Assembly (NCBI RefSeq): GCF_000744705.1
Contig: NZ_JQML01000001.1
Span: forward strand, 3,792,017-3,856,016
Origin: Streptacidiphilus albus JL83
Lineage (GTDB): Bacteria; Actinomycetota; Actinomycetes; Streptomycetales; Streptomycetaceae
Direction: 5' to 3'
Length of the DNA: 64,000 bases
The translations under genes were made by a program, and so were the position numbers. The notes beneath the pieces were generated by a model. That model saw only the letters and a list, made by a program, of their open reading frames with translations. It ran no database searches and was not told where the DNA came from. Positions within the stretch are counted from its first letter, which is position 1; each line of letters opens with the position of its first letter. This document shows positions 2,728 through 21,041 of the stretch, piece by piece.

Positions 2728-2744
2728 TTGCGTTTCCGGACCGA

Positions 2745-4363: not shown

Positions 4364-4370
4364 CTCTGTT

Positions 4371-7224: not shown

Positions 7225-7376
7225 TAGGCGCGTCCAAGTTGAGGAAGTCGCCCGTGTGAACGACGGCCCGTGGTGCTGCCTCGGCCAGCAGGTTGCCAAG
7301 GTTCGTCACGGCCTGTTGGTGGTGCTCGGGTACGTGCGTGTCAGGAATCAGGATGATTCGGTATGGATGACTTGCG

Positions 7377-8270: not shown

Positions 8271-8273
8271 TAG

Positions 8274-8450: not shown

Positions 8451-8691
8451 AGCTGAACACTCCCCCGCGTCGCTTCTTTGACTTCCTCTTGCCCTCATCG
8501 ATGAGCCGGCCGCCCATCTCGATTGCCTGTTCCGGGGTGAGGAAGAATCCGATGTGATGAGTCATGACGCCGGCCTCATTCGACTCCGCAGCCGTGAGGT
8601 AGATCATTTCATCGTCGTAGACTTCTGCCGCAATGGTCACGGTGTCGTCCGGATTCACGTCACAGCCGAACACCATCTTTTCGCTGTTCAA
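8443..8691 (-). CDS. Small phage protein of unknown function
   Basis: 82 residues starting at a TTG that overlaps the stop of the primase TOPRIM frame (TTGA). The N-terminal half alternates acidic and hydrophobic strands (DTVTIAAEVYDDEMIYL). Then comes a FFLTPEQAIEMGGRLIDEG helix, a pattern common in small actinophage proteins, and a basic tail (KRKSKKRRGG). Function unknown. Confidence 0.6.
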   Translation of the reverse strand: MNSEKMVFGCDVNPDDTVTIAAEVYDDEMIYLTAAESNEAGVMTHHIGFFLTPEQAIEMGGRLIDEGKRKSKKRRGGVFSFG

Positions 8692-9350
8692 TCCACCCCC
8701 AATAGTTGTCGCAGCGCGTCATAGCCGTTCTCGACCACGAAGCTGTTCACGTCGTGACCCTTCGGCAGAAGAATCACGCGACTTCCTCTCAGCTTGTCCG
8801 CCAAAGGATTGGCGAACTTTTCGAGGCCAACGCCATCGTCGTCATTGTCTGCATAGATGTAGACGACTTCATATCCTCGGATCATGCGCGTGAACGCATC
8901 TTTCCAACTGCCGGCCCCCGGTGCCCCCACCGTTGGAATGCCTGCCAAGTGGGACGTCTGTGCGTCAATCTCGCCCTCGGCAACGGCAATGTAGTCCTCG
9001 GTACGGAACAGGTCCGTCGTGTTGTAGAGCCGTTGACCCTGCCCGGGAGGGTTCATGTACCGCGTCTTGTGGACCGACTTGCAGTCGTGGTCCAGAAGAC
9101 AACGGAACTTGATGCCGACAATTCCGTACGGGGCACAGTAGGGAATCGACAGCATTCCTTTGTACTGCTCATGTCCCGGAAGCGGGTCGGCGACGACGCC
9201 TAGTTGAAACAATCGTGCGCTGTCCTGCCACCGGTCCCCGAACCTCTTCGCCAAATAGCTCTCGGCGTACGCGTTTCCCTTGAGAGCCTTTTCGTACCGT
9301 CCCGAAGCTTCCGCCAAAAACTCTTTCTGCGTATTCGATGGCACGGGCAA
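8688..9350 (-). CDS. DNA primase, TOPRIM part (3' half of a frameshifted gene)
   Basis: 220 residues are open from a TTG at 9350. A TOPRIM domain is clear: YIAVAEGEIDAQTSH (motif I Glu) and VVYIYADNDDDGVG (DxD), ending in GHDVNSF. This is the catalytic half of a DnaG-type primase making RNA primers for phage DNA replication. No ribosome binding site supports the TTG. The first ~10 residues lie inside the CHC2 frame. A single T too many in a T5 run (9,316-9,320) separates this frame from the zinc-finger half. With T4 the two halves join as AEYAERVLAEASGRY-like sequence. Treat it as the 3' part of one gene. Confidence 0.8.
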   Translation of the reverse strand: MPVPSNTQKEFLAEASGRYEKALKGNAYAESYLAKRFGDRWQDSARLFQLGVVADPLPGHEQYKGMLSIPYCAPYGIVGIKFRCLLDHDCKSVHKTRYMNPPGQGQRLYNTTDLFRTEDYIAVAEGEIDAQTSHLAGIPTVGAPGAGSWKDAFTRMIRGYEVVYIYADNDDDGVGLEKFANPLADKLRGSRVILLPKGHDVNSFVVENGYDALRQLLGVD

Positions 9351-9573
9351 ACTCTGTGATCCCCTCCCTGTCCATGATGATCGAGAAGGAATCCCCTCCC
9401 AAATCGCAGGTGTGGCACCGGAACATCTGTTCCGCCGTCTTCACACTGGCACTGGCCGAATGGTCCTCATGGAAAGGGCATTTCATGGCGTGCCATCGGT
9501 CGCCCTCGGGTACGTGGTCGGCCCCGTAACCCTCTAGAACCTCTTTGATGGAAGGCTTGTCGGCTGCGTCCAC
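9169..9573 (-). CDS. DNA primase, CHC2 zinc-finger part (5' half of a frameshifted gene)
   Basis: The start is the GTG at 9573 behind GGAGGG. The zinc-binding domain uses CPFHEDHSAS and FRCHTCDLGGDSF (CHC2 type), which recognises template DNA in DnaG-like primases. Homology continues to about EFARAIEYAERV. The rest of this frame (to 9,169) is basic, Arg-rich and unlike a primase, consistent with read-through after a frameshift at 9,316-9,320. Deleting one base there gives a continuous 294-residue CHC2-TOPRIM protein ending at 8,688. The frameshift could be a true mutation, a sequence error or a programmed shift. Confidence 0.75.
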   Translation of the reverse strand: MDAADKPSIKEVLEGYGADHVPEGDRWHAMKCPFHEDHSASASVKTAEQMFRCHTCDLGGDSFSIIMDREGITEFARAIEYAERVFGGSFGTVRKGSQGKRVRRELFGEEVRGPVAGQRTIVSTRRRRRPASGT

Positions 9574-9604
9574 GCGCGTTCCCTCCGCCGGCCAGAGAGG
9601 CCCC

Positions 9605-9823
9605 TTACGGGGCCTCAACCGGCGTCGAGTGCCATTCCTGCGGCTGCGCGTCGTACGCGCCGGCCACTACCGCGCGCGTGTATGCCTCCCATTCCTCATA
9701 GGCCGAGGACTGAGTTTCGGTGCCGTTCCTGCTGCGGTCGAAAGCGTCGCGCCGCTTGGTTCGCCGGTTGGTGTTGCCGTTGTATCGGGGAATGTCAGTC
9801 CCGCCTTTCGCAAGTGCACTCAT
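9605..9823 (-). CDS. Small phage protein of unknown function
   Basis: 72 residues, rich in Asn/Arg/Thr in the first half (GNTNRRTKRRDAFDRSRNGT), with a helix AYEEWEAYTRAVVAGAY. It overlaps the upstream nuclease gene by 29 bp and ends 32 bp before the primase GTG. Membership in the unit supports it; no family is recognised. Confidence 0.5.
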   Translation of the reverse strand: MSALAKGGTDIPRYNGNTNRRTKRRDAFDRSRNGTETQSSAYEEWEAYTRAVVAGAYDAQPQEWHSTPVEAP

Positions 9824-10154
9824 CGAGTCGCTTCATAATGGCTACGGCTTGCGCGTTCGACATGACGAACACACTGTCACGCATATGCTTGCCCTTGAGT
9901 TTGAGCATGACCCCGGCATAACGGGCACCTAGCCTGTCGGCTTGGGTACGGGCATCCTTGACGAATGCCCCGAGCGACGCTGTAGCCACGTTCTTGACTT
10001 GAACGGCCCATCCGGGAACACCTTTGATGTCTCCCAGGTCATTGCTGCCGTTGACGTTCCCGTACCGCTCGGCGTCCGGGAATACCGGGGTGAGGACTTC
10101 AACAGCCTCTACCTCTCCCCGGTATCCCTTCGATTTGCTGGCCCGACCGTTCAC
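9795..10154 (-). CDS. PD-(D/E)XK nuclease, Holliday-junction-resolvase-like
   Basis: 119 residues from the GTG at 10154, which overlaps the upstream stop as GTGA. The opening SKSKGYRGEVEAVEVL helix, then SNDLGDIKGVPGWAVQVKN, fits the (N)D-x-GD...QxK active site of archaeal Hjc/VRR-type resolvases. The remaining region (FVKDARTQADRLGARYAGVMLKLKG) is the following helix and strand. The likely role is resolving branched DNA during phage replication or packaging. The family is inferred from motifs only. Confidence 0.6.
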   Translation of the reverse strand: MNGRASKSKGYRGEVEAVEVLTPVFPDAERYGNVNGSNDLGDIKGVPGWAVQVKNVATASLGAFVKDARTQADRLGARYAGVMLKLKGKHMRDSVFVMSNAQAVAIMKRLDECTCERRD

Positions 10155-10336
10155 GGCCGGCGCGTGAGAACGTCAAGCGTGGCCTTGAGTGTGACGACGA
10201 TGGCCCGATTGATGGCCTCGGCCTCACTCCTGGTCAGGTTCCAAGTCTGCGAGCCGTCCGGATGAAGAATGCGGGCCGGCAGTTCCTTGCCGTTGATGAG
10301 GACGTTCGGCATCCTCGGCTCACTCTGAATACTCAT
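10151..10336 (-). CDS. Small phage protein of unknown function
   Basis: 61 residues from the ATG at 10336, with AAAGGAG seven bases upstream. The ATG lies inside the end of the DUF1003 gene (17-bp overlap). Sequence such as LPARILHPDGSQTWNLTRSEAEAINRAI suggests a small strand-helix fold. No family is recognised. Confidence 0.55.
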   Translation of the reverse strand: MSIQSEPRMPNVLINGKELPARILHPDGSQTWNLTRSEAEAINRAIVVTLKATLDVLTRRP

Positions 10337-10673
10337 TGGGTGTCTCCTTTGCGAGGATGCGCAGAAGCCGGAGCGCTTCTGCATTGGTTTCGTAGTCGGT
10401 TTCCGCCCGATGGCGGTCATGCTCGCTCTGCCTGTTCTGGGAGAGCTGTAGCAGTGGTGCGGAGTACGCGGCCTGAATGGAGAAAAGCAGGTTCAGAAGA
10501 ATCCACGGGAACTGGTCCCACTTTGCCCAGACCATCCATGCGACGATGAACAGGGATTGGATTCCCAGGAAGGTCCATGAGCCCATGCGGGCGGCAACGA
10601 CGTCTGCGGCCCTGTCTCCGAGTGTGCGATTGTCGTGCAGTTCGATGTTTGCGGGATGTCGATGTCTAACCAA
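10320..10673 (-). CDS. DUF1003-family membrane protein
   Basis: 117 residues. The DUF1003 hallmark is clear: LGDRAADVVAARMGSWTF, a first membrane helix, FPWILLNLLFSIQAAYSAP, then LLQLSQNRQSEHDRHRAETDYETN. Two transmembrane helices are followed by a charged cytoplasmic tail. DUF1003 proteins are widespread in bacteria with no settled function. Its place inside a phage replication unit is unusual. The start TTG at 10673 overlaps the end of the ATPase gene by 8 bp. Confidence 0.8.
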   Translation of the reverse strand: MVRHRHPANIELHDNRTLGDRAADVVAARMGSWTFLGIQSLFIVAWMVWAKWDQFPWILLNLLFSIQAAYSAPLLQLSQNRQSEHDRHRAETDYETNAEALRLLRILAKETPNEYSE

Positions 10674-11454
10674 TGCGCATCCTTTCTAGGTCGGCCGGCA
10701 ACTCGATTGACCAGTTTCCCGAGGGGTCGGCCCGTCCGCCACGGTTCTTGACGGGCGAGACGTTCAGGATCATGTTTCCGAAGTCGCTCGACCCGGTTTT
10801 GTGAAGGGTGAGGATCATTTCCGGAACCTTGGAAATCTTGCCCAGTAGCGCGGACATGGGCGCCGCTCGAATACCGTCGTCGTATTCACCGGTCAGATGG
10901 TGAAGTGCGATGATTGCCGCGCCTGTGGTCCTGCCCAGTTCATGCAGGAAGTCGATGATCTCGCCGAGGCGGTTGAATTCCCCGTCCGAATCGGACCACA
11001 CGTTCTTGAGATTGTCGATGACAATCAGTTGCGGCCAACAGCCGTACGCGTAGCCGAATGCCTGAACATCAAGGTCCAATGTGTCGAGCGTCGGCGACGG
11101 ATCAAAGTTCCACCTGAGGTAGTCGAGCCGGTTGATTTGCATGTCATAGTGCACCGACCTACCTTCCTCAAGGTCTTTCTCTACCTTCCAAACCTCCGTT
11201 TCCGTGACCATGGCACCCAAACGCGTGTACTGAGTGAATGCGTCACTGTCCGCCGAGAAGTACAGTGTTGGCACTTCTGCCATGACCGCAATGGTTGCGA
11301 CCAATGCCGATTTTCCTACGCCCGGTCCTGCTGCAATCAGCGTGAGCTGACCACGGCGGACGTGCACCCCTGCCCTTTCCAGGGCAGGGAATGCCGCCGG
11401 AATAGGTTCACCTGCTTTGCCGCCCATGCGTCTTGCCCGCACAAGCGTCAGCAA
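10666..11454 (-). CDS. RecA/DnaB-like phage replication ATPase
   Basis: 262 residues from the TTG at 11454. Walker A is AAGPGVGKSALVATI (residues ~41-55), Walker B is PQLIVIDNLKNVW, and a sensor-like IIALHHLTGEYDD follows. The layout matches the AAA_25/RepA-DnaB C-terminal ATPase group used as replicative helicases by actinophages. A DnaB N-terminal domain is absent, so it may be a RepA-like hexameric helicase or a loader. It sits in one unit with primase, nucleases and resolvase, supporting a replication role. Confidence 0.75.
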   Translation of the reverse strand: MLTLVRARRMGGKAGEPIPAAFPALERAGVHVRRGQLTLIAAGPGVGKSALVATIAVMAEVPTLYFSADSDAFTQYTRLGAMVTETEVWKVEKDLEEGRSVHYDMQINRLDYLRWNFDPSPTLDTLDLDVQAFGYAYGCWPQLIVIDNLKNVWSDSDGEFNRLGEIIDFLHELGRTTGAAIIALHHLTGEYDDGIRAAPMSALLGKISKVPEMILTLHKTGSSDFGNMILNVSPVKNRGGRADPSGNWSIELPADLERMRIG

Positions 11455-11495
11455 TGCCTATCCTTTCCGCATGAAGGCAAAAAAAATAGGCCCTG

Positions 11496-11948
11496 CTAGA
11501 CCTTTGCGAACCGCGCGCACTCGTCAGTCTTGTAGTTCTGCGGGCAGTCGAATCCCTGCCACGGCTTCTGTGTGCGGGCGGAAATGCCGGAGACGAAAAT
11601 CTTCTCGCCGTGGCGGCAGTGCGTCGCCATTCCATGGTTCGCGGGTGGCCCTGCGGGGGCCTGTGCGCCCCCTCCGCCGCCCTGCTGGTATCCGCCGCTC
11701 TGGCGACTCTGCTGCGGCCCTACAGGGCCGTTCGGCCGGCCGCCCTGGTCCTCGGGCCGGTGCAGCTCGGCCCCGTAGAACTCGTTGCCGTACGCGGCAA
11801 CGTCCTTGATCAGGCTGACGGCTCGGGCCTCATTGATGAGTGCGGCGACATGATCAGGGTCGGCACCGTGGAACACGATCCATGGATCACTCGACCGAGG
11901 GCCGGCCTTGACGGTTACGGTAACTCCGGACGGGATTTCGGTTGTCAA
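11496..11948 (-). CDS. Phage replication-associated protein with Gly/Gln linker and Cys/His tail
   Basis: 150 residues from a TTG behind AAGGAG. Residues 1-60 form a compact domain (VTVTVKAGPRSSDPWIVFHG). Residues ~66-105 are a Gly/Gln/Pro-rich linker. The last ~45 residues contain THCRHGEK and FDCPQNYKTDECARF, a possible zinc ribbon. Position between a RecB-like nuclease and a helicase suggests a DNA-binding accessory protein such as a single-strand binder. The sequence does not prove that. Confidence 0.55.
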   Translation of the reverse strand: MTTEIPSGVTVTVKAGPRSSDPWIVFHGADPDHVAALINEARAVSLIKDVAAYGNEFYGAELHRPEDQGGRPNGPVGPQQSRQSGGYQQGGGGGAQAPAGPPANHGMATHCRHGEKIFVSGISARTQKPWQGFDCPQNYKTDECARFAKV

Positions 11949-11957
11949 TGATTCTCC

Positions 11958-12794
11958 TTACTTTGCGGAACAGTACTTCCAAACCGGGCAGATGCGGCAA
12001 TGATCACCCACGTTCGGAAGGAATGACTTGGCTTCAATGCCGCGATTGAGTCCGTCAAACCATTTCGTCACCCGCTCCATGGTGAAGAATGACAGGTCGG
12101 TCGGATTCGTGTAGTCGTCGTTCTTGAGCATGTAGAAACGGCCCGTACCGATTTCTACGCCGTACGTCTCCTGCATGGCAAGGGAATAAATGCCAAGCTG
12201 AAAGTCCCAGGCCGGCACCTTTGTGCCGGACTTTAGGTCAACGATTTCAAGCAGACCACTCGGCCATTCCCTGACTTGGTCGATGTAGCCGATCACTTCA
12301 ATGCCGTTCAGGTCGAGCCGAAAGAACAGCTCAATCGCCGGCTCAAGGTCGGGTGTCTCCCAAATGACCCATGGTTCGGAGAGGGCACGTGCCGTGTACG
12401 CGTGAACCTGTTCAATGCCACGTGCGTGCCGGCGCTCGACGTCGACCCCACCCCGTGTACGGGGTGTGCCAGTGAGCCACTTGTCTAGGTCGGGCTCATC
12501 CCGGGTAAGTCGGCTCATGTGTGAGGCCCACGACTGGTCATAGATTGCGACCAATTCGCGGGCCTCTAGGGTCCGATGCGAGCGTTCCCACGCCTCACAG
12601 GCTTCATGCACTGCTAGACCCTGCAATGTCCAGCCAGCGGGGGTCTGTGGCACTTTGTCAATGCGTTCGAGGCGATACCGTTCCGAGCATTGTGTGTAGC
12701 CCGTGAACTGAGAAACGCTCCTGTGTATGCTAGCTTGTCCTGTTGCGGTTGTGATGCATCCTCCAGCCGATGGAATTGTTGCCCAATGCTGCAC
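11958..12794 (-). CDS. RecB/Cas4-like PD-(D/E)XK exonuclease
   Basis: 278 residues. Motifs of the PD-(D/E)XK superfamily RecB branch: GLAVHEACEAWE (motif I His), GYIDQVREW (Asp), LEIVDLKSGTK (DxK), DFQLGIYSLAM (QxxxY). The C-terminus DHCRICPVWKYC supplies Cys residues as in Cas4/AddB iron-sulphur nucleases. It likely processes DNA ends during phage recombination. The start is uncertain: the GTG at 12794 opens the frame but lacks a close ribosome binding site. The nearby AAAGGAG serves an ATG in another frame at 12,810. Confidence 0.78.
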   Translation of the reverse strand: MQHWATIPSAGGCITTATGQASIHRSVSQFTGYTQCSERYRLERIDKVPQTPAGWTLQGLAVHEACEAWERSHRTLEARELVAIYDQSWASHMSRLTRDEPDLDKWLTGTPRTRGGVDVERRHARGIEQVHAYTARALSEPWVIWETPDLEPAIELFFRLDLNGIEVIGYIDQVREWPSGLLEIVDLKSGTKVPAWDFQLGIYSLAMQETYGVEIGTGRFYMLKNDDYTNPTDLSFFTMERVTKWFDGLNRGIEAKSFLPNVGDHCRICPVWKYCSAK

Positions 12795-12810
12795 TGTTCA
12801 CCGTGTTCAT
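12730..12810 (-). CDS. Possible 26-residue leader peptide before the nuclease
   Basis: ATG at 12810 (or 12813), with AAAGGAG just upstream. It reads MNTVNSAALGNNSIGWRMHH and six more residues, and overlaps the nuclease start by 65 bp. It may be a translated leader coupling the nuclease, or the ribosome binding site may simply load ribosomes that start at the nearby GTG. No homology is apparent. Confidence 0.3.
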   Translation of the reverse strand: MNTVNSAALGNNSIGWRMHHNRNRTS

Positions 12811-12847
12811 CATTCTCCTTTGGTCGGTTCGGACGGTCAATCGGATT

Positions 12848-13075
12848 TCAGGCTCGGCCAAGCCATTCAATGTGAATGCGACCGTCCGGGAGGATGTCCT
12901 CAAGGGTCGGTTCACCGTGCAAAGCCGTCAAGCGGTTAATGCGCGGGTGAGCGTCGGACCAATCCGCGCCATTGTCAATCGTGACGTACGCGCCCCCCAT
13001 CTCGGTCGTCCCCTCCTCAACGCAAGTGTCGTTGTTGAGGTAGACGGCCCTTCGGCCGTCGTGCGCAATGTGCAC
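12848..13075 (-). CDS. Small phage protein of unknown function
   Basis: 75 residues from the GTG at 13075, with AAGGGA upstream. The sequence is acidic and His-rich, with short strands (GGAYVTIDNGADW) and ends PDGRIHIEWLGRA. It is the first gene after the promoter at 13,134-13,163. Function unknown. Confidence 0.55.
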   Translation of the reverse strand: MHIAHDGRRAVYLNNDTCVEEGTTEMGGAYVTIDNGADWSDAHPRINRLTALHGEPTLEDILPDGRIHIEWLGRA

Positions 13076-13133
13076 TGTCGTCCCTTGTCCCCGTGTGGCC
13101 GGTACTCCTGTTGAAGCGAGTATCTAGGTTCCA

Positions 13134-13163
13134 ATTGTATGTGTAGCGTGAACGTTCGATCAA
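13134..13163 (-). promoter_or_regulatory. Sigma-70-like promoter inside the replication unit
   Basis: On the minus strand -35 TTGATC (13163-13158), 18-bp spacer and -10 TACAAT (13139-13134). It lies 59 bp before the GTG at 13075. It would let the nuclease-helicase-primase genes be transcribed independently of promoter B. Confidence 0.5.
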
Positions 13164-13351
13164 GGACTGATGAGGAACCGAGGCGAGCAAAGCCGGACAT
13201 ATGTTCCACCTCTTGTCAAAGCTTTACCAATGCATTCCGGGCACGTTAAAGGGGTCGTCCGCCCAATGGCGTCCGACCCCTCAAGGACAATGGCATGGCA
13301 ATCATGCACCAGCCTACTGACCATCATTCGTACTGCTTGCGCTCTGATCAC
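13160..13351 (-). CDS. Small phage Cys-rich protein (possible zinc finger)
   Basis: 63 residues from a GTG that directly follows the stop of the HTH gene. It contains HDCHAIV, LTCPECIGKAL and YVRLC, giving a plausible CxH / CxxC metal site. It uses one TTA leucine codon (near 13,245), which in Streptomyces requires the bldA tRNA. Coding status is supported only by tight spacing and the Cys pattern. Confidence 0.4.
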   Translation of the reverse strand: MIRAQAVRMMVSRLVHDCHAIVLEGSDAIGRTTPLTCPECIGKALTRGGTYVRLCSPRFLISP

Positions 13352-13768
13352 TCAGTCCCGAGCAAGCCAACCATCCTCGCCCTGTTCCCGCTTCCGCCAG
13401 TAGAAGCCAAGTTCAACGTCAAAGACACAGATCAATCCGACGGATCGACGCTTGAACCGCTCCATCTGACGTATCTTCTGCACCCCTAGCTCTCGGCCGG
13501 CTGCGGCTTCGGCCAAAGCACGCAAGGCGACGTACTCAGAATCGTAATGGTATTCCTGAGGAACATACTCGGGAAGGTAGGCACTGTAGTCAATACCCGA
13601 CTTGGCTTCCTTCCCCGCAAGCCGCAAACGGGAAACAAAGCCACTCTTGGTCAATCCAAGAAAGTCCGCAGCCTCTTGATACGATCGCTTCTGCCTACCG
13701 TCCGAATCGTAGAGCGCTTCCAATGCCTCTTGAACCAAAGGATTCGGGTGATTCGTGAATGCAGACAT
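13352..13768 (-). CDS. Phage helix-turn-helix protein
   Basis: 138 residues from the ATG at 13768, with GAGGA seven bases upstream. SYQEAADFLGLTKSGFVSRLR (residues ~26-46) is a helix-turn-helix. The rest is mixed helix and strand and ends in a WRKREQGEDGW tail. It is the first gene behind the palindromic site at 13,842-13,861, so it may regulate that site or be controlled by it. The candidates are an early regulator or an excisionase-like protein; the sequence does not decide. Confidence 0.6.
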   Translation of the reverse strand: MSAFTNHPNPLVQEALEALYDSDGRQKRSYQEAADFLGLTKSGFVSRLRLAGKEAKSGIDYSAYLPEYVPQEYHYDSEYVALRALAEAAAGRELGVQKIRQMERFKRRSVGLICVFDVELGFYWRKREQGEDGWLARD

Positions 13769-14266
13769 AGAAGTATCCTCGGATATGGGGCGGAAATAGT
13801 CACGGTGTATCCCCCTAGAGTGCGCAACCACAACGACCGTACCACACGATTGAACGTGTGGTTCGTGTTTTCCTGCTGCGGAGCGCGACAGAGTCGCCCG
13901 TGTGGAGCACGACGCTAGCGTGTGCACACGATCGCAGACACCACCACACGGGGGGACGGCATCCCCCGCATGACTACCCCATGTCCTCCCTGCCTCAAGC
14001 CAACCTGAAAGGAACCTGAACGGCACCTTAGCCGATGCCCCGGACATTCGCACGCATGTTCTAGCCATGTGTCTCACGTATCTGCCCTGTAGGGACGTCC
14101 GGTCTGAACTGCCAGTTCCCCGAGTCGACCTGACGCCGGATAGTCGTGGCAAGCAGTGCGGTTCAAGCCACCAGGGGAACGCTGCCAAGGCTCCGTGAGG
14201 AAGGTCCTGGTGCCGGCCGCGGCCTGGTCGTCGTCGTGGTCCTGGTCGGCCTGGTCGCCGACGCAG
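13769..14266. other. Non-coding phage control region
   Basis: About 570 bp without a supported gene separates two minus-strand units. It holds the operator/promoter at 13,836-13,861. At 14,221-14,258 it holds a CTGGTC/GTCGTC low-complexity stretch resembling the Asp/Gln repeat coding region near 3,500, but with no open Asp-rich frame. Terminator T3 follows. Nothing else is recognised. Confidence 0.5.
13836..13861 (-). promoter_or_regulatory. Palindromic operator with -10 box, motif copy B
   Basis: A perfect inverted repeat CCACACG - ATTGAA - CGTGTGG (13,842-13,861). On the minus strand it reads into TACGGT (13,841-13,836) as a -10 hexamer, 68 bp before the HTH gene. The core GTTCAATCGTGTG matches the motif copies at 1,550 and 4,113. 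Overlap of palindrome and -10 is what a repressor operator looks like. Confidence 0.55.
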
Positions 14267-14298
14267 AAGAGGCCCCCGCCTGTGGCGAGGGGCCTCTT
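14267..14298 (-). terminator. Hairpin terminator T3
   Basis: Stem AAGAGGCCCCCGCC / GGCGAGGGGCCTCTT with loop TGT and one mismatch/bulge. It lies 42 bp after the stop of the last gene of the right-hand minus-strand unit and belongs to the same hairpin family as T1, T2 and T4. Confidence 0.7.
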
Positions 14299-14339
14299 TG
14301 GTCGTCCTGGTCATCGAGCTGGGCGGCGCCGCCCGCTGG

Positions 14340-14945
14340 TCACACGGTGATGCCCGACATGGGGCACCTGCTTCCCGATGCCGTCACGTGCATGGGAGTG
14401 CTGTTGTCCTCGAACAGTTCCAGGATCTTGCTGCAATCGAGTCGAGGGCACGATATTCGTACCTGCCCGTTGTCCGACGGCCGAAGCTCAGACTTGTTGA
14501 CCATCCTCCTTCGCAGGTCCCTGTACTGTTCCCCGGAGAACAGGGCAAGGAAGGACACGGCGACGCCGGCCGACCGTAGTCGATGCAAAGCCACGGTTTG
14601 ATCGTCCCACGACATTCCTTTGTACTTGCGGCCGATGGTCACCAACAAGGAACGGAAGACGTCCGCATCCTCAGCAAGATTCTCGGGAAGAACGGGAGGA
14701 CGTGACGGATGCGGTTTGCGTGGTTGCAGAGCCGTCGGAGTCCGTCCCGCCGGCCGCATGGTGATTTGGGACTCAACGAGAAGCCGTTTGATTTGGCTTT
14801 CGTCAACTTCGGCTTCCTCGGCAAGTTGGCTTGGCGACCAACCTTCCTGGTATTCCTTGACAATCCAAGCCATCATGCGTTCCCTGTTGCTGCCCCGGTA
14901 CACGGGCAGCGGACCCATCACACGCGGACGCCTGTCATCCGGCAT
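14340..14945 (-). CDS. HTH protein with C-terminal Cys/His motif, paralogue 1
   Basis: 201 residues. The N-terminal part (WIVKEYQEGWSPSQLAEEAE) is a helix-turn-helix of the kind that reads 'growth or recognition by slow scanning of wHTH'. The middle conserved block is FRSLLVTIGRKYKGMSWDDQ, then ALHRLRSAGVAVSFLALFSG. The C-terminus has CPRLDCSKILEL, an HVT and SRCPMSGI, a likely zinc site. It is a clear paralogue of the next gene upstream, with which it overlaps by 28 bp. ATGs at 14,945 and 14,918 are both possible starts. Probably a phage transcription regulator; not named in any family I recognise. Confidence 0.6.
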   Translation of the reverse strand: MPDDRRPRVMGPLPVYRGSNRERMMAWIVKEYQEGWSPSQLAEEAEVDESQIKRLLVESQITMRPAGRTPTALQPRKPHPSRPPVLPENLAEDADVFRSLLVTIGRKYKGMSWDDQTVALHRLRSAGVAVSFLALFSGEQYRDLRRRMVNKSELRPSDNGQVRISCPRLDCSKILELFEDNSTPMHVTASGSRCPMSGITV

Positions 14946-15496
14946 GGCTTTCCAATCTTGTTGAGGTGCATTGGCACATGCACGTCGTCAAGTTCGAGGA
15001 TTTGAAGGCAATCGGTCCTCGGGCACTTGGCTTGAGGCAGACCAGCCGACGACGGCCCCAGCTTGTTCCGGGCAATCAATCGCTTCTTGAGTTCCTTGGC
15101 CGGATCACCCGTGAATGACACAAGAAAGTCAAGGCTCATTCCCGCGTCCCGCAACCGATGCAGGGAAACGGTCGCGTCGTCCCATGTCTGACGCGGATAC
15201 GTGGTACAGATTTCTTTGAGCAATGAGCGGAACCTATCCGCTTGCTCATGGAGCGTCTTCATGGTCACCGGCGGAGGAACCATTGTTGTTCCAGCCTTCA
15301 AGCGTCGAATGTGCGGCGGCAATGGTCCTGGCTCACGCATTGGCGTCTTGGATGCCTTGAGAAGCCCTACAACGAACAAAGGAACGAAGCCACTGGCATT
15401 GCTCAGCTCCGCCACGGACCGACCCTTGTTGTACTCGGCCGCAGCCCAACCAATGGCTTTCCGTCGGTTCTCGTCCGACAGTAAAGGGACTGTCAT
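14918..15496 (-). CDS. HTH protein with C-terminal Cys/His motif, paralogue 2
   Basis: 192 residues from the ATG at 15496. It has the same three-part plan as its neighbour: an N-terminal helix-turn-helix (WAAAEYNKGRSVAELSNASG), a middle block FRSLLKEICTTYPRQTWDDA with VSLHRLRDAGMSLDFLVSFTG, and a C-terminal CPRTDCLQILEL, HVPMHL, KPCRMTG metal-like site. The two proteins align almost end to end, indicating tandem duplication inside the prophage followed by divergence. Function unknown; a paired DNA-binding role is plausible. Confidence 0.6.
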   Translation of the reverse strand: MTVPLLSDENRRKAIGWAAAEYNKGRSVAELSNASGFVPLFVVGLLKASKTPMREPGPLPPHIRRLKAGTTMVPPPVTMKTLHEQADRFRSLLKEICTTYPRQTWDDATVSLHRLRDAGMSLDFLVSFTGDPAKELKKRLIARNKLGPSSAGLPQAKCPRTDCLQILELDDVHVPMHLNKIGKPCRMTGVRV

Positions 15497-15498
15497 AG

Positions 15499-16056
15499 CT
15501 AGCTGTCCCTTTCGATGGAGTCACCCTGTCGCGCGTCAATGTCGTGCCTACTGCGCAACGTATTGATGACCTGTTCGACGTGCCCGACCACCAGGTGTAC
15601 GTTCGTCCCGCTGATCAGCCGGCGAAACGCCTCGGCCTGCCAATGCTGAGGATGCTTATTCAGCCGGGCCAACAATGCCTCGGCCTGTTCGAGTTCCTGT
15701 TGCCACTGGCCATTGAGCACAACGTGCCCGTTGTGGAAGTACAGGGCATTCACGTTGTCCACGGCCTCAAGGACAAGTGTGATGCGCGTGGCAGCACGCT
15801 GCTTGTCGTGCTCCAACTCCGGTTCTCGGCCGATGTAGTCGCTTCCCTCGCCAGTGATCCATTCCACGGTGCCACGCACCCCAGGATGGACACTGTCCCA
15901 TGCCTCAAGCTCGACCAGGCGCGCGCGCATGGCGGGGCCGGCTTCGGCCAAGGCACCACACACGCGCTGCCATTCCACGGCCTCCCAATCGCCAAGCACC
16001 CCAGCGATTCGACGGAGGGTTGTCGCTTTCTCGGTTGTATTCATGCCGATGGTCAT
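15499..16056 (-). CDS. Phage protein of unknown function, helical
   Basis: 185 residues from the ATG at 16056 (an ATG at 16044 is also possible). It is mostly helical and charged, with many Glu/Gln/Leu residues (WQQELEQAEALLARLNKHP, LVVGHVEQVINTLRSRHD), so coiled-coil segments are likely. It ends three bases before the ATG of paralogue 2. A gap of about 110 bp separates it from the gene upstream. No family is recognised. Confidence 0.6.
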   Translation of the reverse strand: MTIGMNTTEKATTLRRIAGVLGDWEAVEWQRVCGALAEAGPAMRARLVELEAWDSVHPGVRGTVEWITGEGSDYIGREPELEHDKQRAATRITLVLEAVDNVNALYFHNGHVVLNGQWQQELEQAEALLARLNKHPQHWQAEAFRRLISGTNVHLVVGHVEQVINTLRSRHDIDARQGDSIERDS

Positions 16057-16165
16057 TGCCGCTTCGCTTCCGCTAGAAGTTGCGTACGGGATGGCAAATG
16101 AAAGGCTCCGGTCACCCGACGGGGGGGCAGGCGACCGGAGCCGCTTGAGGGGGCGCGTCCGTGCC

Positions 16166-16528
16166 CTATCTATCGCGTCCACGTGGGCGCACATAGCGTT
16201 CTATGAGCCCAGGGCGACGATGAGCCCGCCGAACGGCTTCTACAGCCTCTACGGGCTCTGCGGGACGTTCCTTGACGGGAGCGTCACCCAACAGGAGTGT
16301 TTCCCACACTCGGTCATAGAGGATTTGAATGCACGCCGCACACGCGAACAACGGTGCCTGCACCGTGGCAATCGTGGCCGGACCGATCCACAGAACGCGT
16401 TTATAAGCGAAACCGCAGAACAGGAAACAGCGTCCGTCCATCCATCGGTTGCCATCGTCCTGACGTGCCGGCTCCGGCCGGCCGGCGCGCGCAATGACAG
16501 CAATGCCAGGAATCACAAGATCAGTCAT
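16166..16528 (-). CDS. Small phage protein of unknown function
   Basis: 120 residues from the ATG at 16528, which overlaps the stop of the DUF7848-like gene as ATGA. There is an Arg/Asp-rich start, a central Cys pair FACAACIQILYDRVWE that could bind metal, and a Pro/Arg/Glu-rich tail. Function unknown. Confidence 0.55.
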   Translation of the reverse strand: MTDLVIPGIAVIARAGRPEPARQDDGNRWMDGRCFLFCGFAYKRVLWIGPATIATVQAPLFACAACIQILYDRVWETLLLGDAPVKERPAEPVEAVEAVRRAHRRPGLIERYVRPRGRDR

Positions 16529-16770
16529 GACCCGTCCACCAGGCTTGTAGTCCAATGCTTGTCCATGGTCGTCTGAGTGAATGCCCGATGGCCCGGATTC
16601 AAGCCGGAATGCCTAATGGCCCAATCCTGGCAGTCTTCAAGGCTGATCAATGTCTCGGACTGCTTGCCGCATTCCTCGGCGAGACACGCGAACACGTGCA
16701 GCTCTTGAGCGGCAACAGGAGAATCGTCACGTGCAATGAGCCACATGGCACGGCGGATCACGCTTCTCAT
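16525..16770 (-). CDS. DUF7848-like small protein
   Basis: 81 residues. The pattern VFACLAEECGKQS, then EDCQDWAIRHSGLNPGHRAF, matches small actinobacterial proteins found on plasmids, ICEs and prophages (C-x4-5-CG-x-S, W-x2-xH, PGHxxF), which I associate with DUF7848. It starts with ATGA overlap with the gene upstream and ends the same way with the gene downstream. The role is unknown. Confidence 0.55.
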   Translation of the reverse strand: MRSVIRRAMWLIARDDSPVAAQELHVFACLAEECGKQSETLISLEDCQDWAIRHSGLNPGHRAFTQTTMDKHWTTSLVDGS

Positions 16771-17168
16771 CGGCCGGCCCCCTGATGCTCGGGGTCCATG
16801 GGGTGTTCACATGTTCCCGCAAGAGTCGGCGACCACACCGGCGCGACATGAAAGACCAGGGCCGCACCCTGGCAGGCAATGAATTCCGTCTTGGTCGCCG
16901 CACCACACCAAAGGTCATTCTTGGCTTTGGTGAAACCCGCAACAGTCTGCCAGGGATTCAAGTCCATCTCATGCCTGGTCATACTGAATGCTGTTGCCGT
17001 CTGGCGCATGGCACGATTGGCTGTGATCAGCGCGTTCCCCGACGTCCGACAGAGAATGCCAACAGCGTCAATGCCGTCAACGCCATGCAGTTGTGCGAGT
17101 ATGCTCGGTTTCGACGTCTCGCAGGTCAATAAGTACCGGCGCTCAAACAATATGCCAGTGCGCGCCAT
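16767..17168 (-). CDS. Phage protein of unknown function with an early TTA codon
   Basis: 133 residues from the ATG at 17168, two bases after the stop of the ATPase gene upstream. It is Cys-containing (LLTCETS, GILCRTSG, DLWCGAA, EFIACQG, GTCEHP) with no recognised fold. Codon 13 is TTA (17,132-17,130), read in Streptomyces by the bldA tRNA, so its synthesis may follow development. No family is recognised. Confidence 0.55.
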   Translation of the reverse strand: MARTGILFERRYLLTCETSKPSILAQLHGVDGIDAVGILCRTSGNALITANRAMRQTATAFSMTRHEMDLNPWQTVAGFTKAKNDLWCGAATKTEFIACQGAALVFHVAPVWSPTLAGTCEHPMDPEHQGAGR

Positions 17169-17170
17169 TT

Positions 17171-17593
17171 CTAAGCCGCTCCCGTATCGATTCGGACCTT
17201 TACCCATACGCGCTTTGTGAACGTGAGCAGTTCGCAACCACATTCATCGGCATAGCTTGCCACCAGGAGTATGCCCCTACCGTCCTCGGCCATCAGATCA
17301 AACCGAGGCTCATCCGGCCAATGGTCCCGATCCGGATCGGACACACCAATGATGACGTGCGTCCCGTCATTGACAATGTCGACCTTGAACAGCGCTTCCG
17401 AGACAGTGCAATGTAAAACAGCGTTCGTCGCAAGTTCGGAGACGAGAAGCATGGCCGGATCAATGAGGCCATCAAGGCCCCACAGAACAAGCGTTTCGCG
17501 CACCAGCAGTCGAGCGGAGCGGATCGACTCTCGCCGGCCATCAAAGAAGTGCTCAACAGGCCGTGGTGCCGGCTGAACAGTGCTTTTAGACAT
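17171..17593 (-). CDS. ATP-binding anti-sigma-like protein (HATPase_c_2)
   Basis: 140 residues of the RsbW/SpoIIAB-like GHKL fold: N-box LLVSELATNAVLHC, a VSDPDRDH region, and G-box DGRGILLVASYAD. In Streptomyces such small ATPases are very often encoded beside XRE-DUF5753 and DUF397 proteins. This one is divergent from exactly such a pair (17,793 and 18,679). It probably acts by binding or phosphorylating a regulatory partner rather than as a full histidine kinase. It is first in the unit that runs down to T3. Confidence 0.82.
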   Translation of the reverse strand: MSKSTVQPAPRPVEHFFDGRRESIRSARLLVRETLVLWGLDGLIDPAMLLVSELATNAVLHCTVSEALFKVDIVNDGTHVIIGVSDPDRDHWPDEPRFDLMAEDGRGILLVASYADECGCELLTFTKRVWVKVRIDTGAA

Positions 17594-17792
17594 AGGTGTC
17601 CCCTACCCGCGCACTGCACAGTCACGAAACGTCAGGTCCGCTGACTCGGTGCGACGGATTCAGGCTAGCCCTGCAAGTCCGACCCTCGCAAGCAGTTCAA
17701 GCGCAAGTTTGCGCGTCCACTCGATCGTGTGACTCCTGGCCGTATGCTTCCCCCAGGCGACAGACTGTTCACGAGAGTTGAGGGGAGGTCAC

Positions 17793-18692
17793 ATGCCCGC
17801 AGGTAGGAAGCCGACGTACCGCAGCAAGCGGCTGGGGGCGCTGCTCAAGCAGTACCGCATTGCTGCTGAGCTTGACCAGGACGATGCCGCAGCGGCGATC
17901 AAGGGCAGTACCACCAAGATCAGTCGACTGGAGTCGGGCCATGTATCTGCCCGCCCCCTTGAGGTCGATGTGCTCTTGACGCGGTATGGCATCAAGGATG
18001 ACCTTGAACGTGCACGCCTGGAAAAGCTAGCCATGGAGAGCACGAAGCGCGGATGGTGGCTGGACTTTAGGTCCGTCAAGGACGGATACGCCGAGGTGAT
18101 TGCCCTAGAGAGGGATGCTCGGCGACTTTGCTCCTGGTACCCCAATGGCTTTCCTGGGGCATTCCAATCTGATGGCTACATGGAACGGATCATTACTTCA
18201 GGCCCCAAGAAGCTTCCCGCCGAAGAGATTGCCGAGTTGATTGAAGTGCGCCGTCAGCGGCGGACGCGCATTGTCGACTCGGGCGTTCAGCTCTCTGTTG
18301 TGGTGTGGGCACCTGCTATCACGGGCCTGTTCGACGACAACGCTACTGACGATGCGCACCCGGACGTTCACCAAACGCACCAGGAGCAACTTGAGCATGT
18401 CCTCACAATGTGTGAGGCCGAGAACGTGTCGCTACAGGTACTTCCGGAGCACGCCGTTGTTCTCGCTGGCATGTCAGCCCAGTTCACGGCATACACCTTT
18501 GACGCGGCCGCTGACTTTGAGGCCGTCACCATCGAAGGCTTGACCACTTGTCAAGTGATCGAAGAGGCCGAGGATCTATCCAGTTACATGAATCTCTTCG
18601 ACGCGCTACGCTCGGCAGCATTGCCGCCGGATGCATCCGTGCGATTCATCCGTGAGACCCTAGAAGGTACAGGAAGTCATGGACACCCCTGA
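17793..18692 (+). CDS. XRE-family regulator with DUF5753 domain
   Basis: 299 residues. The N-terminal helix-turn-helix (residues ~11-62, LGALLKQYRIAAELDQDDAA, KISRLESGHV) is followed by a DUF5753 domain (~100-290), with the usual YPNGFPGAFQSDGYM and VSLQVLPEHAVVLAGM stretches. The ATG at 17793 has GGGGAGG upstream. A slightly longer frame has no such site. The 3' end overlaps the DUF397 gene by 14 bp, as is typical of WhiJ/BldB-type pairs. It probably regulates its own divergent promoter region with the ATPase gene. Confidence 0.88.
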   Translation: MPAGRKPTYRSKRLGALLKQYRIAAELDQDDAAAAIKGSTTKISRLESGHVSARPLEVDVLLTRYGIKDDLERARLEKLAMESTKRGWWLDFRSVKDGYAEVIALERDARRLCSWYPNGFPGAFQSDGYMERIITSGPKKLPAEEIAELIEVRRQRRTRIVDSGVQLSVVVWAPAITGLFDDNATDDAHPDVHQTHQEQLEHVLTMCEAENVSLQVLPEHAVVLAGMSAQFTAYTFDAAADFEAVTIEGLTTCQVIEEAEDLSSYMNLFDALRSAALPPDASVRFIRETLEGTGSHGHP

Positions 18693-18882
18693 GGTTGTTG
18701 GTACGTTCGTCAAGTCGTCTTACTCCGCTGGCCAGCAGAACTGTGTGTCTGTTGCGCCGACCGCTGATGGTGGCCGCGCCGTTCGGCACACGAAGGACGT
18801 GGAGCAGGCTACGCAGGTCTACACACGCGACGAGTGGGCTGCGTTCATCGCGGGCGTCAAGGCCGGCGAGTTCGACGTGTAA
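18679..18882 (+). CDS. DUF397 protein
   Basis: 67 residues with the DUF397 signature: FVKSSYSAGQQNCVSVA, a central VRHTKD strand, and the C-terminal FIAGVKAGEFDV. In Streptomyces these small proteins pair with DUF5753-XRE regulators, and act as partners in development or antibiotic control. The gene overlaps its partner and ends 14 bp before terminator T4. Confidence 0.9.
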   Translation: MDTPEVVGTFVKSSYSAGQQNCVSVAPTADGGRAVRHTKDVEQATQVYTRDEWAAFIAGVKAGEFDV

Positions 18883-18895
18883 CGCTCTAGCAAGT

Positions 18896-18930
18896 CAGAG
18901 AGGCCCCCGCCAGTGGCGGGGGCCTCTCTG
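18896..18930. terminator. Bidirectional hairpin terminator T4
   Basis: A perfect 16-bp stem (CAGAGAGGCCCCCGCC / GGCGGGGGCCTCTCTG) with loop AGT between the convergent DUF397 gene and the prophage-borne permease gene. It is the strongest member of the prophage hairpin family. Confidence 0.85.
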
Positions 18931-18958
18931 CGTCTCCTCAGGCCCCTCAGGGCCTCTC

Positions 18959-19822
18959 CTAGTCGCTGATGCGCCGATACTTGCGTACCGCCAGCGTCCG
19001 GAACACCAGAAGAATCAACAGTGACCATCCAATCGATGCCAACACGGCATGCTGCATGGGCCATGCGTTGGGTACCGGGTACCCGGGGGGCAGATTGCCG
19101 AACAGGTCACGGCATGCCTGCACGGTGGAGCTGAACGGGTTCCAGTTCGCAACAGGCTGCAACCACCCTGGCATGTTGTTGACTGGCACGAACGCATTTG
19201 AGATGAACGTCAGCGGGAACAGCCAAATGAGGCCAGCCGAGGTAGCTGCCTCGGGGCTACGCACCGACAGCCCGATCAGTGCGCCGATCCAGGAGAAGGC
19301 GTAGCCAAGCAGGAGCAGCAGCAGGAAGCCGCAGAATGCCTCAAGCAAGCTCTTGTGGGTGCGCCACCCAACCAGCAGTGCAACGACTCCCAGAACGATC
19401 AGAGTTAGCGTTGTCTGCACAAGATCAGCTACGGTGCGGCCAGTGAGGACGGCACCACGTGCCATCGGGAGCGAACGGAACCGATCGATTAGGCCCTTGG
19501 TCATGTCCTCGGCGATCCCGGCTGACGCTCCGGCAACAGCGAACGTCACTGTCTGCGCGAAGATGCCGGCCATAAGGAATTGCTTGTAGACGTTGAGACT
19601 TGCACCCGAGCCAGGGACGCTGATTGATCCGCCCATGACGTACGTGAACAGCAGTACGAACATGACTGGCTGGATGAGTCCGAAGATCAGGATCTCAGGA
19701 ATCCGCGCCATGCGGAGGATGTTTCGGCGGGCGATCACCAGGGAGTCACGCGCTGCCTGCACAACTCCGGTTCGCTGCCCTGGGGGTGCCGCGCCGATCG
19801 CGCCCGTTGTGTTGGAAGCCAT
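18959..19822 (-). CDS. Prophage-borne ABC-2 permease replacing the host drrB-type gene
   Basis: This 287-residue ABC-2 type permease has six hydrophobic segments, as in DrrB/NodJ exporters. Its N-terminus (NTTGAIGAAPPGQRTGVV, then RMARIPEILIFGLIQP) is homologous to the truncated host gene just upstream. By eye about 26 of 42 residues match. Codon use is lower in GC than the host ATPase gene, like the rest of the prophage. Its ATG overlaps the stop of the host fragment as TGATG, copying the host ATPase-permease overlap, and AAGGGGG lies upstream. It should pair with the ATPase at 20,034 and restore the exporter. Confidence 0.85.
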   Translation of the reverse strand: MASNTTGAIGAAPPGQRTGVVQAARDSLVIARRNILRMARIPEILIFGLIQPVMFVLLFTYVMGGSISVPGSGASLNVYKQFLMAGIFAQTVTFAVAGASAGIAEDMTKGLIDRFRSLPMARGAVLTGRTVADLVQTTLTLIVLGVVALLVGWRTHKSLLEAFCGFLLLLLLGYAFSWIGALIGLSVRSPEAATSAGLIWLFPLTFISNAFVPVNNMPGWLQPVANWNPFSSTVQACRDLFGNLPPGYPVPNAWPMQHAVLASIGWSLLILLVFRTLAVRKYRRISD

Positions 19823-20034
19823 CAGAGCGCACCCCCTTCAAGTGCCCAGGCCAACCCGCTGACCTGGGTACTTGGCGAAGTGAAACCTACCCAACATGGG
19901 CCAACAGGATTCGGGATCCGGGTCATCCGCCGGAGGTTGCGCTTGGCCACCACCCGCGAGTCGCGCAGGGTCTGCAGGACGCCGCCGCGCTGCTGCGGGA
20001 CCGCGCTCCCGATCGCACCGGTGGTCGCTGACAT
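19822..20034 (-). pseudogene. Truncated host drrB-type permease (5' fragment)
   Basis: The fragment starts at the ATG at 20034, overlapping the ATPase stop as TGATG. The first ~41 codons (ATTGAIGSAVPQQRGGVLQ to RMTRIP) are the N-terminus of an ABC-2 permease with host-like codon use. The next ~29 codons come from prophage sequence and match nothing. The frame ends in a TGA that overlaps the ATG of the prophage permease. The missing 3' part should lie beyond the left end of the prophage. The open 70-codon frame probably still carries ribosomes to the replacement gene. Confidence 0.85.
19900..19925. other. Predicted right attachment junction (attR)
   Basis: Reading the host permease on the minus strand, homology holds through RRMTRIP (CGGATGACCCGGATCCCG). 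It then breaks into an unrelated frame where the family continues RIPEILIFGL. The last shared bases lie at about 19,905-19,919 around CGGGATCC. The exact core cannot be defined without the left end. Confidence 0.65.
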
Positions 20035-21041
20035 CAGGAGTCCTTCCGGCCGGCGCGGGTCGCGTCGGCGCTCTGGTCGGCGTTCTCGTCGTCGTCGCCG
20101 AGGGTCGCGTGGCCGGTGAGGGAGAGGAACACGTCGTCGAGGGTGGGGCGGCGCAGCCCGATGTCGTGCAGCACGATGCCGCGCCCGTCCAGCTCCCTGA
20201 TCACGTCGGCCAGCACCCGGGCCCCGCCGCTGATCGGCACGGTGATCCGGCGGGTGTGCGGCTCGACCGTGGGCTCGCCCTTGGCGTACGGGGTGAGGGC
20301 GGCGAGGGCCGGCTCCAGGTCGGTCGGGAGCTGCACCACGACCTCGATCCGCTCGCCGCCGATCTGGGCCTTGAGCTGGTCGGCGGTGCCCCGGGCGATG
20401 ACCCTGCCGTGGTCGACCACGGCGATGTCGTGGGCCAGCCGGTCGGCCTCCTCCAGGTACTGGGTGGTCAGCAGCAGCGTCGTGCCCTGCTCCACCAGGG
20501 TCTCGATGACCTCCCACAGCGCCATCCGGTTGCGTGGGTCGAGTCCGGTGGTGGGCTCGTCCAGGAACATCACCGGCGGCCGGACCACCAGCGCAGCGGC
20601 CAGGTCGAGCCGGCGGCGCATACCGCCGGAGTAGGTCTTCGCGGTGCGGTTGGCGGCCTCGGAGAGGTTGAACCACTCCAGCAGCTCCAGCGCCCTGGCC
20701 TTCGCGTCGCGGGCGCTCATCTGGTAGAGCTCGCCGACCATCTGCAGGTTCTCACGGCCGGTCAGGTACTCGTCCACGGCGGCGTACTGCCCCGACAGGC
20801 CGATCAGGCTGCGCACCTGGTTGGGGTTCTTGAGGACGTCGACGCCGGCCACGACGGCGCGGCCCGCGTCCGGCTTGAGCAGGGTGGTGAGCACGCGGAC
20901 GGTGGTGGTCTTGCCCGCTCCGTTGGGGCCGAGCAGGCCGAGGACGGTGCCCTCGGGGACGTCGAGATCGACGCCGTCGAGGGCTCGTACGTCGCCGAAG
21001 GACTTCACCAGTCCTTCGGCGGAAATGGCGACCGCTGCCAT
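20034..21041 (-). CDS. DrrA-type ABC exporter ATP-binding subunit
   Basis: 335 residues. Walker A is GPNGAGKTTTVRVL (residues ~38-51), signature YSGGMRRRLDLA, Walker B VMFLDEPTTGLDPRN, and an H-loop region TTQYLEEADRLAH. The C-terminal ~90 residues are the DrrA-type extension, ending RRPTLDDVFLSLTGH. It hydrolyses ATP to power export of drugs, lipids or metabolites through the membrane subunit encoded downstream. The stop overlaps the start of the truncated host permease, so translation coupling is expected. A daunorubicin/doxorubicin-resistance-type name reflects the family, not a proven substrate. Confidence 0.93.
   Translation of the reverse strand: MAAVAISAEGLVKSFGDVRALDGVDLDVPEGTVLGLLGPNGAGKTTTVRVLTTLLKPDAGRAVVAGVDVLKNPNQVRSLIGLSGQYAAVDEYLTGRENLQMVGELYQMSARDAKARALELLEWFNLSEAANRTAKTYSGGMRRRLDLAAALVVRPPVMFLDEPTTGLDPRNRMALWEVIETLVEQGTTLLLTTQYLEEADRLAHDIAVVDHGRVIARGTADQLKAQIGGERIEVVVQLPTDLEPALAALTPYAKGEPTVEPHTRRITVPISGGARVLADVIRELDGRGIVLHDIGLRRPTLDDVFLSLTGHATLGDDDENADQSADATRAGRKDS

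Follow-up and report, generated by a model that had tools for sequence, protein, structure and literature searches.

A Streptacidiphilus prophage that splits an ABC exporter permease gene and brings a complete, diverged permease to the same operon

Genomic islands that bring a substitute for the gene they split are already known. The RME island of Vibrio cholerae S24 lies in recA and carries a complete recA copy that is 23% divergent (Rapa et al. 2014, PMC4405046). Another island, in tmk of Pseudomonas putida KT2440, carries a deoxynucleoside monophosphate kinase (dNMPK, PP_1964) that takes over the lost function experimentally (Wirth et al. 2023, PMC10653934). The usual rule, with stated exceptions, is that attP carries replacement sequence rebuilding the target, as at icd and tRNA genes (PMC10111431). 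Here we analyzed a prophage of Streptacidiphilus albus JL83 that is inserted in the permease gene of an ABC exporter operon and carries a complete, diverged permease of its own. The stretch analyzed (hereafter the window) comprises 64,000 nucleotides of NZ_JQML01000001.1, from 3,792,017 to 3,856,016. Positions outside it are given as genome coordinates; G and L numbers denote genomes and loci, the source genome being G000.

The locus shares with RME an island inside a host gene, an integrase at one end, a complete diverged copy of the target at the other, and a split native gene (PMC4405046). RME, however, is a single island that combines a phage integrase with a XerS-like recombinase, and a LexA-type site lies in the promoter region of its recA (PMC4405046). 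By contrast, the elements described here use large serine integrases, eleven of them occupy one gene and relatives occupy a second, and a leader overlaps the replacement start within the host operon. Their replacement copies also tend to have a recoded attB. The tmk island likewise interrupts an essential gene and provides the activity that is lost, and a tmk/holB overlap is discussed for it; it differs in its tyrosine-type recombinases and in its substitute, a T4-like dNMPK that is no close tmk homologue, and the text available mentions no attB recoding (PMC10653934). In icd and tRNA elements, too, target function survives integration, but there it is the original gene that is rebuilt, by partial sequence within an extended block of att identity (PMC10111431). 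Here the core measures about 4 bp, the native 5' and 3' parts stay apart, and a whole second gene takes over. An attB within a coding gene is also used by serine-recombinase integrative mobilizable elements (PMC5704250) and by Streptomyces phage Samy (PMC12924846). The former are described as disrupting dispensable genes and the latter as having possible polar effects, and the passages available for each mention no replacement copy. Among the matches listed from the open-licence literature, we found no account of the permease and hydA system described below, nor of a replacement gene with a recoded attB.

The split permease gene and its replacement

The upstream gene of the operon (20034..21041, minus strand) encodes a DrrA-like exporter ATPase, which passes Pfam ABC_tran (E 4.2e-30) and lies above the DrrA family threshold of NCBIfam TIGR01188 (360 bits; cut-off 312.45). 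Its stop overlaps the start of the host permease in a TGATG (20032..20036, minus). There follow the first 41 codons of the host gene (19912..20034, minus), with the native N-terminus (MSATTGAIG...NLRRMTRIP), similar on sequence comparison to the resident permeases of relatives and with the att core in codons 40-41. Next come 29 unrelated codons of att and phage sequence, which complete a leader open reading frame of 70 codons plus stop (19822..20034, minus). The leader stop overlaps, in a further TGATG (19820..19824, minus), the start of a complete 287-residue permease (18959..19822, minus). This junction, with its stop/start coupling kept, is the one described in the original prediction and was confirmed in every part.

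The 287-residue protein passes Pfam ABC2_membrane (E 1.8e-26, 93.5 bits, cut-off 26.9) and falls below the DrrB cut-offs (TIGR00025, 83.7 vs 146.9 bits; drrB, 63.3 vs 223.05 bits). It is an ABC-2 permease, DrrB-like only. The lower GC content and the AAGGGGG site that had been ascribed to it were both found: GC at third codon positions (GC3) is 0.72 compared with a mean of 0.97 in resident permeases, and AAGGGGG stands directly 5' of the start. In 1-kb windows, GC content ranges from 0.56 to 0.68 left of the junction and is 0.72 immediately right of it; the element as a whole has 0.593 and its right flank 0.72.

A headless 3' fragment of the host permease had been predicted to lie left of the window. 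When the source genome (9.9 Mb, one contig) was searched at the DNA level, the 3' part of the phage permease matched 3771465-3772186 with 75% identity, and the predicted fragment is present there (genome 3771449-3772165), adjoining the integrase. It opens at the att core in the frame EIVVFGMLQP (EILIFGLIQP had been expected) and runs uninterrupted to its stop. The stranded host protein and the phage permease are 76% identical over 244 shared residues. The integrase frame enters the fragment for about a dozen codons, in a non-permease frame, and then stops.

The attL site lies at genome 3772178-3772192 with the serine integrase adjacent, and attR extends approximately over 19890..19940 (minus), its phage half continuing as GAATCCTGTTGGCCC. 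Tefunt, an isolated phage, has a similar phage arm, and so do other elements in their attR. Both ends share the core TCCC (window 19913-19916; genome 3772185-3772188), which makes the element about 39.7 kb long. In the attP deduced from the two ends, the core is bracketed by the inverted repeat AACAGG...CCTGTT. As judged from attL and attR, the crossover core is short (about TCCC, ~4 bp), with no extended identity block. The integrase matches phrog_95 (E 9e-69, residues 16-530 of 669), and four homologues were aligned; its N-terminal profile, long C-terminal region and short core identify it as a large serine recombinase. Integrase and replacement permease stand at opposite ends of the element, and both ends and the element are on one contig. 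The att cores, together with PHROG and Pfam matches, bear out a prophage within the permease gene with a full replacement at its right end; that the host gene has been replaced is, by this architecture, near certain.

The arrangement suggests how the exchange would proceed. The integrase would recombine attP with attB inside the permease gene, at codons Ile40-Pro41. The host gene would thereby be split, its first 41 codons staying behind the ATPase gene and its last ~240 codons being stranded 39.7 kb away, startless and beside the integrase. Because a complete permease lies just beyond attP, integration sets the replacement immediately downstream of the host fragment. There it would remain under the host promoter, and the 41+29-codon leader would be translated to the stop that overlaps the new start, so that ribosomes would be passed on and the coupling of ATPase and permease kept. 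With the split subunit replaced and transport presumably maintained, the lysogen would pay little for the insertion.

Recurrence at the permease gene and at hydA

Further elements were sought by integrase searches of 394 family genomes and of 392 genomes of the genus of G337 (overlapping sets), by comparing a four-row integrase alignment with genome contigs (15 loci), and among genomes with two permeases. The resulting counts are not rates; the search sets overlap and the search was not exhaustive. Single-query integrase scans confirmed no relatives, but the four-row alignment query did. Ten more insertions like that of Streptacidiphilus were found within Streptomycetaceae, at the same codons of the same permease gene. 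They lie in Peterkaempfera griseoplana NRRL B-3064 (L062), Streptomyces natalensis ATCC 27448, S. sp. IMTB 2501 (L064), Streptomyces sp. NRRL S-646 (L069), BV286, D2-8, and genomes G121, G630, G364 and G446. With the source included, 10 of the 11 elements were recovered through integrase searches and that of G121 through its two permeases. All eleven comprise the ATPase gene, a full-length replacement permease, an integrase or integrase remnant (broken in D2-8, G121, G630 and G364) and a host 3' remnant. Ten further loci of the same layout exclude chance or assembly error; an assembly artefact was rejected on these loci and on the single contig.

The elements at this site are of several kinds: another prophage, remnants related to RepSA (resembling actinomycete integrative and conjugative elements), and decayed elements. 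The second prophage (G446, ~53 kb) has the same layout, with terminase, portal, head protease and tape measure matches (6/10 proteins, 1e-8). A protein of NRRL S-646 matches RepSA (E 3.1e-141) at 471 bits, under the 700-bit cut-off, and IMTB 2501 apparently holds part of a RepSA-like gene (by eye); both elements seem partial. The remaining elements retain little beyond integrase and permease. In G121, genes of arsenic-resistance type, as read from translations, lie between the replacement permease and the broken integrase (L101 6214-12572), as if a decayed element had turned into a landing pad.

In a search of the genus (14 genomes, source included; thresholds E <= 1e-60 for the permease and E <= 1e-100 for the integrase), each of the 13 other genomes has a single permease match, stop-free inside and with no element there; one match is merely 76% complete. 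Twelve of the 13 have no integrase match, and the thirteenth (G005) has two, both at hydA. Across the family, permease matches at E <= 1e-90 occur in 370/394 genomes. Nine genomes with two permeases were considered as candidates. One is the element of G121, the additional copies of G019, G130 and G188 each belong to a separate, related ATPase-permease operon, and the second matches in G021, G026, G163, G343 and G390 reach 54-59%. In the stretch fetched, the separate operons (L102, L105, L107) have no adjacent matches to mca, greA or ilvA.

We compared the fate of the replacements with that of the host remnants. Replacement frames are open in 11/11 elements, and at least 5/11 host remnants (L062, L063, G121, G630, G364) are damaged by frameshift, truncation or gap (Fisher p 0.035). 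The pN/pS of replacements against their nearest residents is 0.16-0.28, indicating purifying selection. Leaders running from a host 5' fragment into att-derived codons are present in 9 of the 10 other elements, and the stop of all ten leaders overlaps the start of the replacement, as ATGA, GTGA or TGATG. Even where the host 5' fragment is mostly lost (P. griseoplana and G121), the shortened leader is still open and the overlap retained. The element of G630 has no leader; its replacement resembles a host/phage hybrid and itself starts in an overlap with the ATPase stop. Since an overlapping frame is usual at resident ATPase/permease junctions (31 of 38 parsed, counted from the list), the elements keep the usual coupling.

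A permease tree was built from 64 rows (8 replacements, 7 host remnants and 49 residents; the resident of L080 is the same gene as the G121 replacement), without the L062 remnant, which is too decayed, and without G630, G364 and G446, which were found later. Replacements and the 7 remnants need 4 label changes, at least 3 of them forced by well-supported branches, and 73 of 500 label shuffles are as low, so there is no clustering by label. The G000 copy branches at the base of the Streptacidiphilus-type group, the natalensis copy and the remnant of its own host gene are sisters, and further groups unite IMTB, D2-8 and G121, and S-646 and BV286 with one resident. A single phage-permease clade was rejected because the replacements are scattered among host-type permeases. 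This scatter suggests that the module is retained while its permease seems to have been acquired or renewed repeatedly from host lineages.

Two residents, L087 (G021) and L014 (G007), have a short N-terminus, with 15 codons from the ATPase stop to the motif, and a partly recoded attB (ATT TTT in L087, ATT CCT in L014). They resemble domesticated replacement copies whose element is gone.

The same design was found at a second gene. The 15 loci of the alignment search include 6 at the permease site, 6 at which a 3' fragment of the dihydropyrimidinase gene hydA lies beside the integrase, and 2 beside a short-chain dehydrogenase/reductase (SDR) gene. Each of five hydA-site genomes searched has a full-length hydA elsewhere, on other contigs except in G396 and G400, in which it lies on the same strand as the fragment, 165 and 110 kb away. 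Of seven full-copy loci fetched, five have the 5' part of a host hydA (~150 codons, running into att) immediately before the full hydA; the other two, L125 and L126 (both G399), lack it. Two of these five junctions (L123, L127) end in an ATGA overlap, which L121, L122 and L124 do not have. L155 (G015), with about 50 kb between full copy and fragment, is a further case in which a 5' fragment precedes the full copy. As hydA encodes a cytosolic enzyme, the strategy is not exporter-specific.

Some genomes carry several copies at hydA. G399 (Streptomyces sp. CC208A; L125, L126, L127) has three full-length hydA genes and one fragment, two of the full copies lying 35 kb apart on one contig, as in repeated or nested integrations. 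Streptacidiphilus jiangxiensis has two related serine integrases, with a hydA 3' fragment behind each of them (L066, L067), and one full hydA with a preceding 5' fragment (L124).

Recoding of the internal attB and competing explanations

An element that holds attP, an integrase and a whole target gene also carries its own attB. In the window, the equivalent site lies inside the replacement permease at about 19679-19714 (minus) and reads ATT CCT, compared with ATC CCC in most residents. We therefore compared codons at this site, using 39 of the 40 resident permeases parsed by motif among 48 loci. L087 was omitted as a suspected domesticated copy, and L089 and L091-L096 as paralogues or non-matching. 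The core Ile codon of the 11 replacement permeases is ATT in ten and ATC in one; ATT accounts for 7/152 other Ile codons downstream in the same genes (p 7e-11) and for 5/39 residents (p 3e-6). Phe 18 bp further on is TTT in 9/11 replacements compared with 5/184 other Phe codons and 1/39 residents. AT-ending codons in replacement permeases peak in the 14-codon core window (0.385; median 0.126), the highest of 235 windows, and codons 0-8, upstream of attB, are near the gene average (15/98 AT-ending). Eight hydA replacements, L155 included, behave alike: the ten highest of 420 windows start at most 5 codons from the core (0.315 vs a median of 0.096). This peak lies mid-gene, at about codon 150 of 463, and 26 resident hydA genes (of 29 loci, 26 parsed) have no peak of AT at third positions (AT3) at the core (16/386 vs 416/10753 pooled). 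A Thr in the hydA core region is changed to Ser in 7/8 replacement copies and in 0/26 residents; the recoding of replacement attB is otherwise mostly synonymous. Recoding is thus clear in the family and weak in the G000 gene alone. At least five distinct recoding patterns over two genes argue for selection, and a recoded attB would protect the cargo of the phage from its own integrase and the rescued gene from being targeted again.

Several observations weigh against a reading as rescue with a shielded copy. The attB segment of the G000 permease has no AT excess (3/15 vs 65/233 third positions, p 0.83); this permease is AT-richer throughout, and its recoding is visible at the core only. The per-gene excess is significant (p < 0.05) in 7/11 permeases and 4/8 hydA copies. 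Resident permeases also have their highest AT3 windows at the N-terminus, although lower (0.10-0.12 vs a median of 0.03), and their pooled AT3 at the segment is 59/568 vs 271/8990. Targeted hosts L071 and G446 read ATT at the core and G364 reads ATA, so ATT alone may not block the integrase. Shared descent of the elements and of the genes also means that the codon p-values assume more independence than there is. Finally, isolated phages with related integrases carry no close permease. The original prediction proposed to look for the permease next to attP in related actinophages; no close one was found in 50,697 phage records, where the matches were four Listeria records at 29-30% identity, and no close relative was confirmed in IMG/VR. 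The attP arm of Tefunt (CTTCCCGAATCCTCTTCGC...GATTTCAATCCAACTCGC) is similar to the phage arm of the BV286 attR; its integrase is followed by a terminator-like stretch and a helix-turn-helix (HTH) gene, with the permease absent. The rescue gene is thus not obligatory but an optional module between attP and the regulator. Its carriage by all eleven chromosomal elements read, a small count from a search that was not exhaustive, would be explained by selection among lysogens.

Could the AT-rich attB segment be unselected, either old phage DNA not homogenized with host copies or a feature of the 5' part of the gene? The segment is indeed near the 5' end in permeases, where residents show a weaker excess, the stranded 3' remnant, being in the same cell, could convert the gene body, and the G000 gene is low in GC throughout. 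We consider this unlikely in view of the mid-gene hydA peak that is absent in residents, the Thr to Ser change confined to replacement copies, and the average composition of permease codons 0-8. The original prediction saw the point of the exchange in lysogenic conversion, with the phage permease kept for a changed exporter substrate range that benefits the lysogen. An identity of only 76% and an ATPase of the DrrA subfamily of drug exporters would suit such a trait. The claim was not supported as it stood, and altered specificity is the less likely outcome: replacements scatter among host-type permeases without a specialized clade and are under purifying selection, the cytosolic HydA is handled by the same design, and permease matches throughout most of the family suggest a conserved, ordinary function. 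Conversion therefore appears improbable, and rescue of a split gene fits better than a new exporter trait.

Imprecise excision could also produce a permease copy that travels as a passenger, its tidy coupling being a by-product, and free phages of the same att type do lack the gene. Accidental cargo of this kind is nevertheless very improbable, given the open copy in every chromosomal element beside decaying host remnants, the overlap that ends each leader even after the 5' ends of L062 and G121 were shortened, and the second target gene of the same design. We give almost no credence to a reading in which the complete permease is native to the host and the fragments upstream and at the left end are duplications. 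It does occupy the operon position; its GC3, however, is far below the resident mean, phage-side att sequence lies upstream of it, the resident attB is where the left and right fragments join, and residents mostly start at the ATPase stop. The locus is, very probably, a lysogen of an "insert and rescue" phage, in which the split subunit has been swapped for a diverged and probably attB-shielded copy. On balance we lean, with less assurance, toward a wider reading in which a Streptomycetaceae lineage of elements with large serine integrases splits conserved coding genes and delivers a complete, expressed replacement whose recoded attB bars self-cutting and the re-entry of related elements. Besides phages and RepSA elements, this lineage would include the hydA elements, which measure ~50-165 kb if each is one element.

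Gene content, related integrases and significance

With terminase, portal, tail, lysis, replication and integrase genes between its att ends, the element is a temperate tailed-phage prophage. PHROG matches were obtained for 16 of 20 prophage proteins submitted, naming terminase small and large subunits, portal, minor tail, tape measure, endolysin, sigma factor, methyltransferase, primase, DnaB helicase, exonuclease, HNH and integrase; the replacement permease has no PHROG match at E <= 0.001. The right half of the prophage occupies 1..19916 of the window and includes endolysin (1499-2365), sigma factor (4763-5407), methyltransferase (7377-8270), primase (8688-9350), DnaB helicase (10666-11454) and exonuclease (11958-12794) genes. 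An HTH regulator (17778..18692, plus; phrog_9908 DNA binding protein) adjoins the permease in convergent orientation. The left half, outside the window, holds the terminase, portal, tail and tape-measure genes and the serine integrase by attL. A G/C-rich inverted repeat of ~35-54 bases recurs within the prophage (window 18884-18937, 2684-2737 and 14260-14300; genome 3776460-3776508), with matches on both strands, and probably represents a family of similar terminators between phage gene blocks.

An integrase tree covers 8 of the 11 elements (G630, G364 and G446 were left out). A single clade of permease-site integrases was rejected: 2 changes are needed, and Tefunt and the SDR-site pair nest within the group. 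The latter two integrases (L073, L075) lie directly upstream of the SDR gene. An IMG/VR record (L077, 52.6 kb, integrase 56%) contains no permease and decides nothing, as its integrase end enters an apparent permease site and its other end stops short of the expected permease position. On the host side, 3' of the stranded permease end, stand what we take to be a greA-like gene and a mycothiol S-conjugate amidase gene (mca) (L009 1213-2103 and 2728-3357). A similar pair lies beside the site in G446, G630, G364 and G044, and a link between the exporter and mycothiol detoxification may exist.

The locus indicates how an element could settle in a conserved, co-translated gene without costing the host its function, and how mobile elements can swap core genes for diverged alleles. 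Permease and hydA trees of actinomycetes contain element-borne alleles and call for caution. If the recoded attB is confirmed, it would answer how an element can carry its own target site, and it would provide serine integrases with matched native and immune attB variants for tests of attB rules and for tools. Engineered home-and-rescue and cleave-and-rescue drives are nuclease drives in animals. By analogy, and with no shared descent, they too may be said to combine an attack on a needed gene with a recoded rescue copy that the cutter cannot attack. If the reading proposed here is true, these Streptomycetaceae elements would be a natural counterpart of such recoded-rescue drives, and would leave behind domesticated, element-derived core genes.

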